This document shows, piece by piece, positions 53,607 through 62,120 of a stretch of DNA of 64,000 nt. Origin of the DNA: Aliiroseovarius sp. F47248L (GTDB lineage: Bacteria > Pseudomonadota > Alphaproteobacteria > Rhodobacterales > Rhodobacteraceae); assembly GCF_023016085.1 (NCBI RefSeq), contig NZ_JALKBF010000001.1:1302001-1366000 (forward strand), in the 5' to 3' direction. The notes below the pieces were generated by a model. That model was not told where the DNA came from, searched no databases, and saw only the letters and a list, made by a program, of their open reading frames with translations. Position numbers and translations under genes: made by a program. Within the stretch, counting starts at the first letter, position 1. Each line of letters starts with the position of its first letter.

Positions 53607-54038
53607 ATGAGCGATAGCGACCTTATCAAACTCTATTCAAAACAAATCCTAGCCTTGGCCACGGAAATTCCTCATCTAGGCACCCTTGAAGACGCCGAGG
53701 GCGAGGCCAAAGCCCGCTCTCCGCTGTGCGGCTCAACCGTGACGGTCGGTTTGGCACTGGCCGATGGAAAAGTTTCCCGTTTTGCACAGAACGTAAAAGC
53801 CTGCGCGCTGGGTCAGGCGTCGGCCGCCGTTCTTGGCAAGGTCGTGATCGGGCTTGACCGCACGACGTTACAACAGGGCCGCGACGCGTTGCATGCGATG
53901 CTGACAAAGAACGGCCCCGTTCCTTCTGCCCCTTTCGATGGATACGAAGTTCTGCTTCCAGCTCGTGATTTTAAAAACCGCCACGCCTCGATCCTTTTAC
54001 CTTTTGACGCCACGCTCAACGCGATCGACGCCTCATAA
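53607..54038 (+). CDS. IscU/NifU-like iron-sulfur scaffold protein
   Basis: A 143-aa protein of the IscU/NifU N-terminal type. The ligand-like residues are the Cys in [11 protein letters not shown] and the Cys in [13 protein letters not shown]; the third ligand position near the end is not obvious (the AIDAS C-terminus lacks the usual HCSxLAxxA), so it may be a diverged scaffold. AGGA precedes the ATG. The stop codon overlaps a minus-strand T-run of a terminator. It is not close to the suf operon. Confidence 0.8.
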
Positions 54039-54072
54039 AAAAAACCGCCGCACTCCTGGCAGGGAGGCGGCG
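54037..54072 (-). terminator. Intrinsic terminator on the minus strand
   Basis: On the minus strand: CGCCGC, CTCC, 6-nt loop, GGAG, 1-nt bulge, GCGGCG (arms 54067-54072/54063-54066 and 54053-54056/54046-54051). Then G-G-T8 (the T-run is 54044-54037). It would end a transcript coming from the small-protein gene at 54227-54349, about 155 bp after that stop. Confidence 0.88.
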
Positions 54073-54226
54073 ACAGTTGCGGCTCGGGATAATCCGTTCG
54101 GGTGCAGGAATGAGGCAGAAGCACCGAAACGAGGGACAGGCGACGGGCAGTGAACCGTCTGGACGCATCGATATTGGGACATGATGCTAAGTCCGGACCC
54201 TGAGCTGGCAGAAACTTGGTTTGGGG

Positions 54227-54349
54227 TCAGATCACCCCCGGCAGATGCAGCGCGCCAAACAGCACGACAAGCAGGGACATACCCCCTATTGCATCCTGCC
54301 AAATGGTGGCGGACGAACGGGCCAATGCGGTTTTCACGTCATTCAACAT
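54227..54349 (-). CDS. Small membrane protein (40 aa), putatively SOS-controlled
   Basis: Too short for usual ORF cut-offs, but well supported. The ATG at 54349 has a perfect AGGAG 7 nt upstream. The 40-aa peptide begins MLNDVKTALARSSATIW and ends with one hydrophobic helix, GGMSLLVVLFGALHLPGVI (about 22-40), a single-pass membrane anchor. It has its own minus-strand terminator (54037-54072), and 92-126 bp upstream stand four GAAC repeats including an exact GAAC-N7-GAAC alphaproteobacterial LexA box. This resembles SOS-induced small division inhibitors such as Caulobacter SidA in size and topology, but no sequence homology is claimed. Confidence 0.72.
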   Translation of the reverse strand: MLNDVKTALARSSATIWQDAIGGMSLLVVLFGALHLPGVI

Positions 54350-54440
54350 GGATCAACTCCTGCTCTCTACTCTGGTGGCATCTTCGCGCTGCCATCCTTT
54401 TGTTGCCCTTTTGTTCGCATATTCCTAACCCGCCTGTAAA

Positions 54441-54475
54441 GAACTTTTTAAGAACATTTGTGAACTTTTGTGAAC
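54441..54475 (-). promoter_or_regulatory. SOS/LexA-type repeat array (four GAAC repeats)
   Basis: GAAC at 54441-54444, 54452-54455, 54462-54465 and 54472-54475. The first pair has the exact N7 spacing of the alphaproteobacterial LexA box (GTTC-N7-GTTC on the other strand); the next two gaps are N6. Repeats every 10-11 bp place them on one face of the helix. They lie between the recG stop and the 40-aa gene. Confidence 0.65.
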
Positions 54476-54482
54476 AAAGCCC

Positions 54483-56573
54483 TTAACCCACTGAAATCAA
54501 ACGAATCGCTTCGTCCTGTCGCATCAGCCACAAAAGCACGCGCGCTGCGTGCCCCCGTGGCGTGGTCAAGTCCGGGTCTTGTTGCAGCAACAGCCGCGCG
54601 TCTTTCTGTGCCACAGCCATCAGCCCCGCCTGATGTTCCAGATCACCGACCCAGAAGCGCGGCAGACCGGATTGCGCCGTGCCCAGCACGTCGCCCGCCC
54701 CGCGCATCTCCAGATCGGCTTCGGAAATCACGAAGCCATCCTCGGTGTCACGCATCACCGCCAGCCGTTTCTCGCCGCCTTCAGTCAGGGGTGGCTGATA
54801 CATCAACAGGCAGGTCGAAGCCGCCTGCCCCCGCCCCACGCGCCCGCGCAACTGGTGCAGTTGCGCCAGCCCGAAGTGCTCGGCCCGTTCGATCACCATG
54901 ATCGAGGCATTGGGCACGTCCACCCCGACTTCGATTACCGTTGTCGCGACCAGCAGCTTGGTCTTGCCCGCGACGAAATCCGCCATTGCCGCGTCTTTTT
55001 CCGCAGGCGGCATCTGGCCATGGACCATGCCCACGATGCCTTCGCCCAAGGTCGCGCGCAGATATTTGAACCGTTCCTCGGCGGCGGTCAGGTCCATGAC
55101 CTCGCTTTCTTCGACCAACGGGCAGACCCAGTAAGCCTGCGCGCCATCGGCCATCGCGCGGCGCAGGCGTTCAACCACCTCGTCGATCCGGCCAGAAGAC
55201 ACCAGAACCGTCTTGATCGGTTTGCGCCCGGGTGGCTTCTCATCCAGGACCGAGACATCCATATCCCCATATTGCGCCAGCGCGAGGCTGCGCGGAATGG
55301 GCGTGGCGGTCATCACCAGAACGTCAGCGGCCTGTCCCTTGGCCCCCAGCTCCATCCGTTGCGAGACGCCAAACCGGTGCTGTTCATCCACGATGGCCAA
55401 CCGAAGGTCATGAAATTCCACGTCTTTCTGGAACACCGCATGGGTACCGACCAGAATGTGAATGTCGCCCTTGGCCAGCGCCTCAAGCTTGGCGCGTCGC
55501 TCGGCCCCCTTGTCGCGCCCGGTCAGGATCTCGACCACGACGCCTGCGGCATCGGCCAGCGGGCGCAGCCCTTCCAGATGTTGACGGGCCAGAATTTCGG
55601 TGGGGGCCATCATGACGCCCTGCCCGCCGGCCTCGACCGCGACCAGCAGCGCCAATAGCGCGACCAGTGTCTTGCCCGACCCCACATCGCCCTGCAACAG
55701 CCGGTTCATCCGCTTGCCCGAGGCCAGATCGGCGCTGATCTCTTCCACCGCGCGGGTCTGGGCGACGGTTGGTTTGTAGGGCAAAGCGGCCAGCACCTTG
55801 GCCTGCAAGTCGCCCGTGCCCACGCTGACCCGCCCTTTGCTGCGCCGCACCTTTGCACGCGCCAGCGCCAGCGTCAGTTGATGGGCGAAAAACTCGTCAT
55901 AGGCCAGCCGGCGACGCGCAGGCGATTGCGGTGACAGATCGTCCGCCCCCTCGGGCGCATGGGCCACCCTGAGTGCCATATGCCAGTCGGGCCAATGTTC
56001 GCGCGCCTTCAATTCCGGGTCGATCCATTCTTTCAGAACGGGCAGCCGCGTCAAAACCTCGCCCACCCCCTTGGCGATCACCCGTCCGGTTACACCGGCT
56101 GTCAAGCGATACACCGGTTCGAAATCTGGAATGCTGGCGGCGTCTTTCGGGGGCACGATGTAATCGGGATGGACGATTTGCAGCTTGCCGTCGAAGCTTT
56201 CGACCTTGCCCGACACCACACGCGTCGCACCTTCCGGCAGTTGTTTGCCAAGCCATGCGCCATTCGCGTGAAAGAACACGAGCTCAAACGTCGTCAGTGC
56301 GTCGCGCACTTCGATCCTGTAAGGCGCGGTTTTTGTGCGTCCCGGCCTGTGCTGCACCACTTCGATCTCGACCGTGGCCATGTCGCCCGGCTGCACCTCG
56401 GTGACCGAGGCGCGGAATTTGCGGTCGATGCCTGCGTGCGGCAGCCAGAACAGAAGGTCGCGCGGCCGTTCAATGCCCAGTGTTTCCATAGCCTTGGCGG
56501 TTTTCTCTCCAATCCCGCCAAGGGTTTCCAGTTCGGCAAACAGGGGAAACAGAATCTCGGGCCGGGTTGCCAT
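54483..56573 (-). CDS. recG: ATP-dependent DNA helicase RecG
   Basis: A 696-aa branch-migration helicase. The N-terminal wedge/OB domain (about 1-180) comes first. Helicase motifs: Walker A GDVGSGKT (near 297), DEQH as VDEQHRFG, TATPIPRS motif III, then motifs IV-VI in VEVGVDVPNASIMVIERAEHFGLAQLHQLRGRVGRG. The C-terminus is typical. It restarts stalled forks and processes D-loops. Its ATG lies 3 bp after the ligA stop, so ligA-recG form an operon. Confidence 0.97.
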   Translation of the reverse strand: MATRPEILFPLFAELETLGGIGEKTAKAMETLGIERPRDLLFWLPHAGIDRKFRASVTEVQPGDMATVEIEVVQHRPGRTKTAPYRIEVRDALTTFELVFFHANGAWLGKQLPEGATRVVSGKVESFDGKLQIVHPDYIVPPKDAASIPDFEPVYRLTAGVTGRVIAKGVGEVLTRLPVLKEWIDPELKAREHWPDWHMALRVAHAPEGADDLSPQSPARRRLAYDEFFAHQLTLALARAKVRRSKGRVSVGTGDLQAKVLAALPYKPTVAQTRAVEEISADLASGKRMNRLLQGDVGSGKTLVALLALLVAVEAGGQGVMMAPTEILARQHLEGLRPLADAAGVVVEILTGRDKGAERRAKLEALAKGDIHILVGTHAVFQKDVEFHDLRLAIVDEQHRFGVSQRMELGAKGQAADVLVMTATPIPRSLALAQYGDMDVSVLDEKPPGRKPIKTVLVSSGRIDEVVERLRRAMADGAQAYWVCPLVEESEVMDLTAAEERFKYLRATLGEGIVGMVHGQMPPAEKDAAMADFVAGKTKLLVATTVIEVGVDVPNASIMVIERAEHFGLAQLHQLRGRVGRGQAASTCLLMYQPPLTEGGEKRLAVMRDTEDGFVISEADLEMRGAGDVLGTAQSGLPRFWVGDLEHQAGLMAVAQKDARLLLQQDPDLTTPRGHAARVLLWLMRQDEAIRLISVG

Positions 56574-61334: not shown

Positions 61335-62120
61335 TTACAGTGCTGTCCAGCCGCCATCGACCGAGATAGTGGTGCCGGTGATCTGTGCTGCAGCATCCGA
61401 ACACAGGAAGACCGCCGTACCGCCCATCTGTTCGACCGTTGCAAACTCTTTCGATGGCTGGCGGGCCAGCATGACATCGCGCACGACCTCGTCCCGGCCC
61501 ATATTGTGAGTCTTCATCTGATCGGGGATTTGCGCCTCGACCAGCGGGGTCAACACATAACCGGGACATATCGCATTGCTGGTGATCGGATCCTCGGCAG
61601 TTTCCAACCCGACCGTCTTGGTCAGACCGACAATTCCGTGCTTGGCCGCGATATAGGCGGATTTATAGGGTGACGCCGTCAATCCATGTGCCGAAGCGAT
61701 GTTGATCACACGCCCCCACCCGGCTTTGCGCATTATCGGCAGAGCTGCAGCGGTAGTGTGAAATGCCGAAGTCAGGTTGATTGCGATGATGGCATCCCAT
61801 TTCTCGGTCGGAAATTCGTCAACGGGGGCGACGTGCTGAATGCCTGCATTGTTAATCAGGATATCGCACCGCCCAGCTTTTTCGATCAACGCGCGGCATT
61901 GATCACCTTTCGACATATCCGCCTGTATATAGCGCGCGGTGACGCCAAATTCATTGGCAATATCGGCGGCCAGCGCATGGTCTTCGTCGTTGTCCGTGAA
62001 CGAGTTAAGAACAACATCCGCCCCCGCCCGTGCCATCTCGCGCGCAATCCCCAGCCCGATGCCCGAATTTGATCCGGTGATAACAGCGGTCTTGCCGTCC
62101 AGCGATGTTGTGATGGCCAT
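61335..62120 (-). CDS. bdhA: 3-hydroxybutyrate dehydrogenase
   Basis: A 261-aa SDR enzyme that interconverts 3-hydroxybutyrate and acetoacetate with NAD. Cofactor motif TGSNSGIGLGIA (about 15-26), NNAGIQHV, and the catalytic SAHG...Y-x3-K (SPYKSAYIAAKHG). The C-terminal PGYVLTPLVEAQIPDQ segment is typical for bacterial BDH. Predicted cytosolic. Its promoter region holds nothing specific, then the minus-strand sRNA terminator lies 172 bp upstream of its ATG. It is probably cotranscribed with the patatin gene. Confidence 0.93.
   Translation of the reverse strand: MAITTSLDGKTAVITGSNSGIGLGIAREMARAGADVVLNSFTDNDEDHALAADIANEFGVTARYIQADMSKGDQCRALIEKAGRCDILINNAGIQHVAPVDEFPTEKWDAIIAINLTSAFHTTAAALPIMRKAGWGRVINIASAHGLTASPYKSAYIAAKHGIVGLTKTVGLETAEDPITSNAICPGYVLTPLVEAQIPDQMKTHNMGRDEVVRDVMLARQPSKEFATVEQMGGTAVFLCSDAAAQITGTTISVDGGWTAL

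Follow-up and report, generated by a model that had tools for sequence, protein, structure and literature searches.

A recG-linked small gene of Rhodobacteraceae with LexA-type promoter boxes, a predicted single-helix membrane protein and a conserved structured 3' RNA

Does the short interval behind recG in Aliiroseovarius sp. F47248L hold a genuine SOS gene, and what might such a gene do? The window, that is, the whole stretch of 64,000 nucleotides that was analysed, had received an initial annotation that proposed here a 40-aa single-helix protein with a Shine-Dalgarno sequence, an upstream array of four GAAC repeats and its own terminator, and that considered an SOS-induced division inhibitor or toxin. 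The ORF, the Shine-Dalgarno sequence (AGCAGGAG) and the four repeats, one pair of them being an exact GAAC-N7-GAAC, were all found where they had been placed. The terminator is present as well; it lies outside the boundaries given to the gene, ~155-190 nt past the stop codon. Beyond the box in the array, the locus carries a second LexA-type box at the expected -10 position and a structured 3' RNA, both of which had been missed. The coordinates are compiled in Table 1.

Table 1. Features of the locus in window coordinates.
Feature	Position	Strand	Basis
ORF of the predicted 40-aa small membrane protein, with stop codon	54227-54349	minus	ATG start, pN/pS, AlphaFold
Shine-Dalgarno sequence AGCAGGAG	54357-54364	minus	precedes ORF start; aligned in relatives
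Structured 3' RNA (3' UTR or processed small RNA)	54036-54229	minus	model R1, covariation, fold z-score
Intrinsic terminator, GC-rich hairpin and T run	54037-54072	minus	helix conserved, with changes on both sides
Box B, LexA-type, GAAC-N7-CAAC	54402-54416	minus	at expected -10 / transcription start
Probable -35, TTTACA	54435-54440	minus	conserved
Box A, LexA-type, exact GTTC-N7-GTTC	54441-54455	minus	directly upstream of -35
Array of four GTTC half-sites (gene strand N6, N6, N7)	54441-54475	minus	
recG, 696-aa ORF, upstream neighbour	54483-56573	minus	conserved

Judged from its substitution pattern, the 40-aa ORF is a real gene under clear purifying selection. Comparison of 20 genus sequences revealed a pooled pN/pS of 0.35, with pN below pS in 190 of 190 pairs, as against 1.03 in the +1 frame, 2.9 in the +2 frame and 0.84 in antisense for the same DNA, which rules out an ORF by chance; the synonymous bias that had been proposed as a check on the reading frame is thus present. 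A search of 5.8 billion proteins yielded 8 matches at E 0.01, one of these being the query itself. Some of the database entries from close relatives are carried as 'hypothetical protein' of Aliiroseovarius, and the earlier view that the protein is not generally annotated is therefore only partly right.

Alignment of 17 sequences that had been found by search alone showed M1, D19, G22, L34 and P37 to be invariant, and D19, G22 and P37 were invariant also in 67 sequences, of which 66 had been pre-filtered for D, [GA] and P. AlphaFold predicted helices at residues 2-11 and 13-39 with a mean pLDDT of 87. The C-terminal half is hydrophobic and contains the one predicted membrane helix (helix 13-39), and insertion of the protein into the membrane is very probable. 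K and R predominate at positions 6 and 11, and the C-terminal tail carries no charge, a pattern that suggests an N-in, C-out topology. The window protein gave no match in Pfam, NCBIfam, PHROGs or PADLOC, the 17 family members gave none in Pfam or NCBIfam, and the 67 family members gave only single weak matches (phrog_1096, E 0.0012; DUF826, E 0.0077). On these searches, a known protein family was excluded, and the family databases yielded no sequence relative with a known function.

The gene is widespread in the family and tied to its place. An alignment-based search detected the 40-aa protein in 169 of 198 genomes, one per Rhodobacteraceae genus, which answers the earlier call for a homologue search across relatives: the ORF is conserved, and so are its boxes (see below). 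With a single protein as query, 35 of 61 relatives matched at E <= 1, a few weak class matches included, as did 33 of the 51 better genomes; when 385 genomes of the class were sampled, 5 matched, all of them Rhodobacteraceae (the family's share of the 385 is not given). The 21-bp core of the first promoter block was scanned in named genomes and found at no fewer than 80 loci; of the 80 matches listed, 78 have recG upstream and 73 have a small ORF that was picked up by a mechanical search. Of the two loci without recG, one (L125) is a Muribaculaceae record and probably a chance match, and the other (L164) has the ORF but is truncated by the end of the fetched stretch. The name recG rests on tblastn of the 696-aa protein against relatives and on loci of the recG family TIGR00643. 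The 78-sequence profile was built from loci chosen by their 21-bp match. For the 29 genomes without a protein-profile match, the recG end was readable in 23, and inspection of these divergent loci by eye revealed a small ORF with promoter still visible in 15 and not visible in 8. Loss of the gene is seen in lexA-bearing genomes too.

Alignment of 29 upstream regions, found via the protein, revealed two conserved blocks, the first reading GTTC-N6-GTTC-N7-GTTC-TTTACA and the second, ~12-13 bases on, lying around GAACAAA...GCAACA. In the window, the plus-strand GAAC copies start at 54441, 54452, 54462 and 54472 with spacings of N7, N6 and N6; only the first pair is an exact GAAC-N7-GAAC, and the outermost copy is absent from some relatives. 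Genome-wide, the exact GAAC-N7-GAAC occurs at 68+64 sites as against 58+67 for the reversed pattern and is not enriched, so that a single box proves little and needs other support. That support was sought in 58 recG-ORF regions, one per genus. The exact box in either orientation was present in 57 of the 58 (GTTC-N7-GTTC in 54, GAAC-N7-GAAC in 9, both in 6), compared with shuffle means of 0.03 loci (GTTC) and 0.19 loci (GAAC); the shuffles, here and for the RNA motifs below, preserved base composition only. The 58-genus set is non-random: it mixes relatives and best hits with genomes chosen for low rank or for lack of lexA and with divergent ones that gave no profile match. Its ORFs had passed a filter for D..[GA] and a hydrophobic stretch that excluded 14 of 95 loci, five of which carry the RNA match described below, and before the count four duplicates were removed and the window's genus was reduced to a single genome. 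The longer pattern GTTC-N7-GTTCTTTAC was present in 137 of the 198 family genomes, in nearly every case as a single copy and with a few of the matches lying elsewhere, while its reversed-pattern control gave 13 matches in 12 genomes. Together, the reversed-pattern control and the conservation in 57 of 58 regions versus shuffles rule out a LexA-type box by chance.

A weight matrix built from the boxes of SOS genes was scanned over the 127,972 window positions and ranked box A 2nd and box B 9th; the rank-1 site, at 61998, lies inside a coding ORF and was set aside. Box B is imperfect in this genome, and its type, GAAC-N7-NAAC, was present in 55 of the 58 regions. It is a perfect GAAC-N7-GAAC in 10 of the 23 divergent loci and in L292, and 8 of these 11 perfect sites agree with GAACA-N6-GAACA, which forms the core of the LexA consensus that was defined experimentally for Caulobacter and is given in PMC13384398. 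Of all the promoter evidence, that from the genomes lacking a protein-profile match is the strongest. Across the divergent loci, the first block ranges from complete (G021, G121) to absent (G077, G134, G169), and box B is perfect even in the three loci that have no upstream array. Among the 15 divergent loci in which the unit persists, 8 read TTGAC (judged by eye) at the place of TTTACA; G077 has TTGACT-N17-TATAAG, which places a good -10 within the box. No canonical sigma-70 promoter was detected at the locus by consensus scanning, as is expected of an operator-covered, activator-like or weak -10. GTTC-N6-GTTC was present in 40 of the 58 regions, all other non-N7 spacings being rare; this N6 spacing beside the N7 pair, in the array of the window and at the aligned loci, is not explained by known LexA boxes.

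The same box type was found at 30 of 30 lexA promoters examined in Rhodobacteraceae and at recA here, which was identified by family search. In the own genome, LexA-type boxes also precede uvrA, uvrD/pcrA and mmcB (L098, L102 and L091; named from the protein sequence). Two further sites of this genome are possible SOS targets, namely GAACATATAGAGAAC at position 1504 of L093, ~13 bases before a 361-aa ORF, and the intergenic GTTCTATATTTGTTC at position 1519 of L094. Given the conservation of the box in the family, SOS control of the small gene, and with it the LexA control of a small membrane protein that the initial annotation had put forward, is well supported at the level of sequence, and repression of the locus by LexA is likely.

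Genomes without lexA were considered separately. No lexA match was obtained in 13 of the 198 genomes, and recA turned up in 10 of the 12 that were searched for it. The exact recA box is kept in five of the ten (G191, G202, G204, G239, G240), so that lexA may simply be missing from these assemblies; one of the five, G239, has lost the small gene. The remaining five have neither a lexA match nor the exact recA box. Among them, G201 retains the ORF without either promoter block, the gene is gone from G028 and G211, and G073 shows no gene match, the recG end being outside the view. G072 (86% complete) retains the array, an observation that counts against LexA unless its gene escaped detection there. 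In G113 and G203, neither lexA nor recA was found, and the array is kept. G113 is listed as 100% complete, and the two genomes represent either an assembly gap or a true loss. A link between loss of lexA and loss of the promoter or the gene is suggestive only.

Downstream of the ORF, a conserved RNA of ~190 nt extends from the stop codon to the terminator, with CUGUCCC/CUGCCU motifs in its loops. When the sequence behind the ORF was scanned for a hairpin followed by a T run, 67 of 74 sequences showed a terminator. At the 53 loci kept by length and terminator, CTGTCCC occurred 55 times versus 2.6 in shuffles and CTGCCTG 71 times versus 1.5, and in the predicted folds TGTCCC, CTGCC and TGCCT were 75-83% unpaired versus 43% for the whole RNA. 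At the same loci, CCTCC (CCUCC in the RNA) is avoided, with 15 occurrences versus 36 expected, although the RNA is C-rich.

RNAalifold supported only the terminator when all 54 aligned sequences were used, and a long closing stem with 18 better-aligned sequences that had been chosen by eye. Hairpins were added to the structure by hand, and the structure derives in part from the same 18-sequence alignment, in which two-sided changes were seen at 28 of the 44 pairs and 81.5% of cells are paired versus 38-46% in a slid control; none of 500 shuffles attained even one of the five covariation measures. The covariation signal comes from the closing stem and the terminator; the three inner hairpins are weaker (59-70% paired). 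The window RNA had a fold z-score of -3.39. The covariance model R1, built from these 18 hand-picked sequences, matched the window at 54039-54229 (67.6 bits, E 3.3e-14). At E 0.01 it matched 58 of 77 sources in total, or 56 of 75 without two exact training copies; in 42 of the 52 matches with a tabulated ORF, it starts <=6 bases from the stop codon. It gave nothing at E 1 in 72 control loci (258 kb), and the RNA was absent at 8 of 8 loci without a visible ORF. One second, weaker R1 match lies off the usual place, on the minus strand of L235 at 608-782 (20.6 bits, E 0.0051).

In Rfam 15, no family reached its gathering score. There were two sub-threshold matches in all (E 0.18 and 2.4), the better one being BcKCsr2 with 17.4 bits versus the required 40, and a known RNA family was excluded on this basis. 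Dual-function small RNAs of the SgrS/SgrT type combine a small ORF and a conserved structured RNA in a single transcript. Unlike these, the locus has an SOS-type promoter, places the ORF first and the RNA after it, and has no Rfam family match. The 3' RNA might act in trans, a proposal that we rate slightly below an even chance.

Building on the gene, the boxes, their conservation and the RNA structure as read from the sequence, our reading is that of a Rhodobacteraceae SOS gene with two products, a membrane protein and a 3' RNA, and we hold it to be somewhat better than evenly supported. LexA would occupy the boxes at the -35 and the -10 of the promoter right behind recG; upon DNA damage, RecA would trigger self-cleavage of LexA and the promoter would fire. 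The transcript would encode the 40-aa protein with its one membrane helix, its N-terminus inside and almost no periplasmic part, which would most likely bind the late divisome at the level of FtsW/FtsI/FtsN and delay septation, as SidA does in Caulobacter. The remainder of the transcript, up to the terminator, would be the structured RNA, probably a small RNA showing its loop motifs to targets. G201, which gave neither a lexA match nor a recA box and whose two promoter blocks are gone, fits this reading. The N6 spacings, the arrays kept in G072, G113 and G203, the imperfect box B of this genome, the disappearance of the gene from some genomes that have lexA and the outcome of the sigma-70 scan count against it, and the divisome is proposed as the target by analogy.

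The role in division is suggested by analogy with SidA and DidA, both of which act on FtsW/FtsI/FtsN (PMC4211646), and by the search for SulA (PF03846), which gave 0 matches in 100 family genomes while the E. coli control was positive. A SidA-like division inhibitor is the most likely function of the protein, with the chances of its being right and wrong in balance. SidA of Caulobacter crescentus, as described in PMC4211646, shares with the protein the tiny single-helix inner-membrane architecture, the LexA box and the alphaproteobacterial host; it has 29 aa compared with 40 in the family here, and the likeness is drawn from its description. Unlike sidA, the locus is fixed behind recG and has a conserved structured 3' RNA. 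DidA is likewise a small bitopic protein that answers DNA damage, but it has 71 aa and is induced by DriD, not LexA (PMC4211646). YneA, SosA and other SOS division inhibitors share the LexA-type control and, for YneA, a membrane segment; they come from other phyla and were compared by description only.

The best-placed alternative to this function is an SOS-induced membrane-active peptide of the TisB/DinQ type, which would enter the inner membrane, lower the membrane potential and slow growth, its expression being tuned by the 3' RNA. TisB (PMC8145889) and DinQ (PMC3567139) of Escherichia coli are SOS-controlled membrane peptides, and LexA-type control, a single hydrophobic helix and an RNA-rich transcript would be common to both cases. 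Their control by antisense or processed RNA was, however, not seen here, where cis pairing only was analysed: in pairing with its own start region, the 3' RNA does no better than the RNAs of other species (a mean fraction of 0.47 over 53 loci), so that no cis-antitoxin is apparent, and the RNA was rejected as an antitoxin of this cis-pairing kind. Nor does a gene that most of the family inherits stably behind recG resemble a mobile toxin-antitoxin pair. We consider a peptide of this type unlikely.

Less probable still is a reading in which the GTTC array serves an OmpR-type activator or some other regulator, the gene belonging to envelope or cell-cycle control with a minor part for LexA. The half-sites form 10-11 bp direct repeats (spacings 10, 10 and 11) with a conserved spacer that end at the adjoining -35, and arrays are present in G072, G113 and G203 without a lexA match, all of which would suit such a regulator. 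Against it stand the perfect LexA-type box B where the array is absent and the N7 pair in 54 of 58 regions, which scores like LexA boxes. CenR (TGA-N8-TGA; PMC9275681) and ChvI (PMC9731502) were rejected as owners of the array, since the motifs given in these papers differ from it. Least probable is that the RNA is the main product, namely a trans-acting multi-loop small RNA made during SOS with the ORF secondary to it. Structure and loop motifs are indeed conserved over much of the family, the motifs lying in loops; against this reading, the ORF is under clear purifying selection and remains recognisable at ten loci without an R1 match at E 0.01.

Returning to the SOS gene with two products, a more elaborate version would be a dual-product SOS checkpoint, in which a divisome-blocking peptide is joined by a multi-loop sRNA acting on mRNAs with GGGACAG or AGGCAG sites; we regard it as a tentative and rather doubtful extension. 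If true, it would couple the braking of division with a post-transcriptional layer in the control of the damage response.

In the open-licence literature searched (subscription papers and supplements were outside its scope), no paper was recognised as describing the gene or the RNA, no experiment on the 40-aa protein was found, no SOS division inhibitor was named for Rhodobacteraceae, and nothing was found on filamentation in a lexA mutant of Rhodobacter. For Dinoroseobacter shibae, predicted LexA sites are reported in PMC6473078, from whose available text recG is absent; the main text of PMC4809877, on trans sRNAs of Ruegeria pomeroyi, has no mention of recG, and the available text of PMC3688512 mentions lexA three times and recG not once.

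As an SOS small-membrane-protein gene, the locus would belong to a known kind, and what is new here is its combination with a conserved structured RNA. The RNA itself is a new conserved RNA with a possible link to DNA damage, and the promoter offers a case in which LexA-type boxes have changed place within a single promoter as it evolved. Abundant marine bacteria as well as laboratory models belong to the Rhodobacteraceae. For this family, the locus provides a concrete and widely conserved candidate for an SOS division inhibitor that is testable in model strains.
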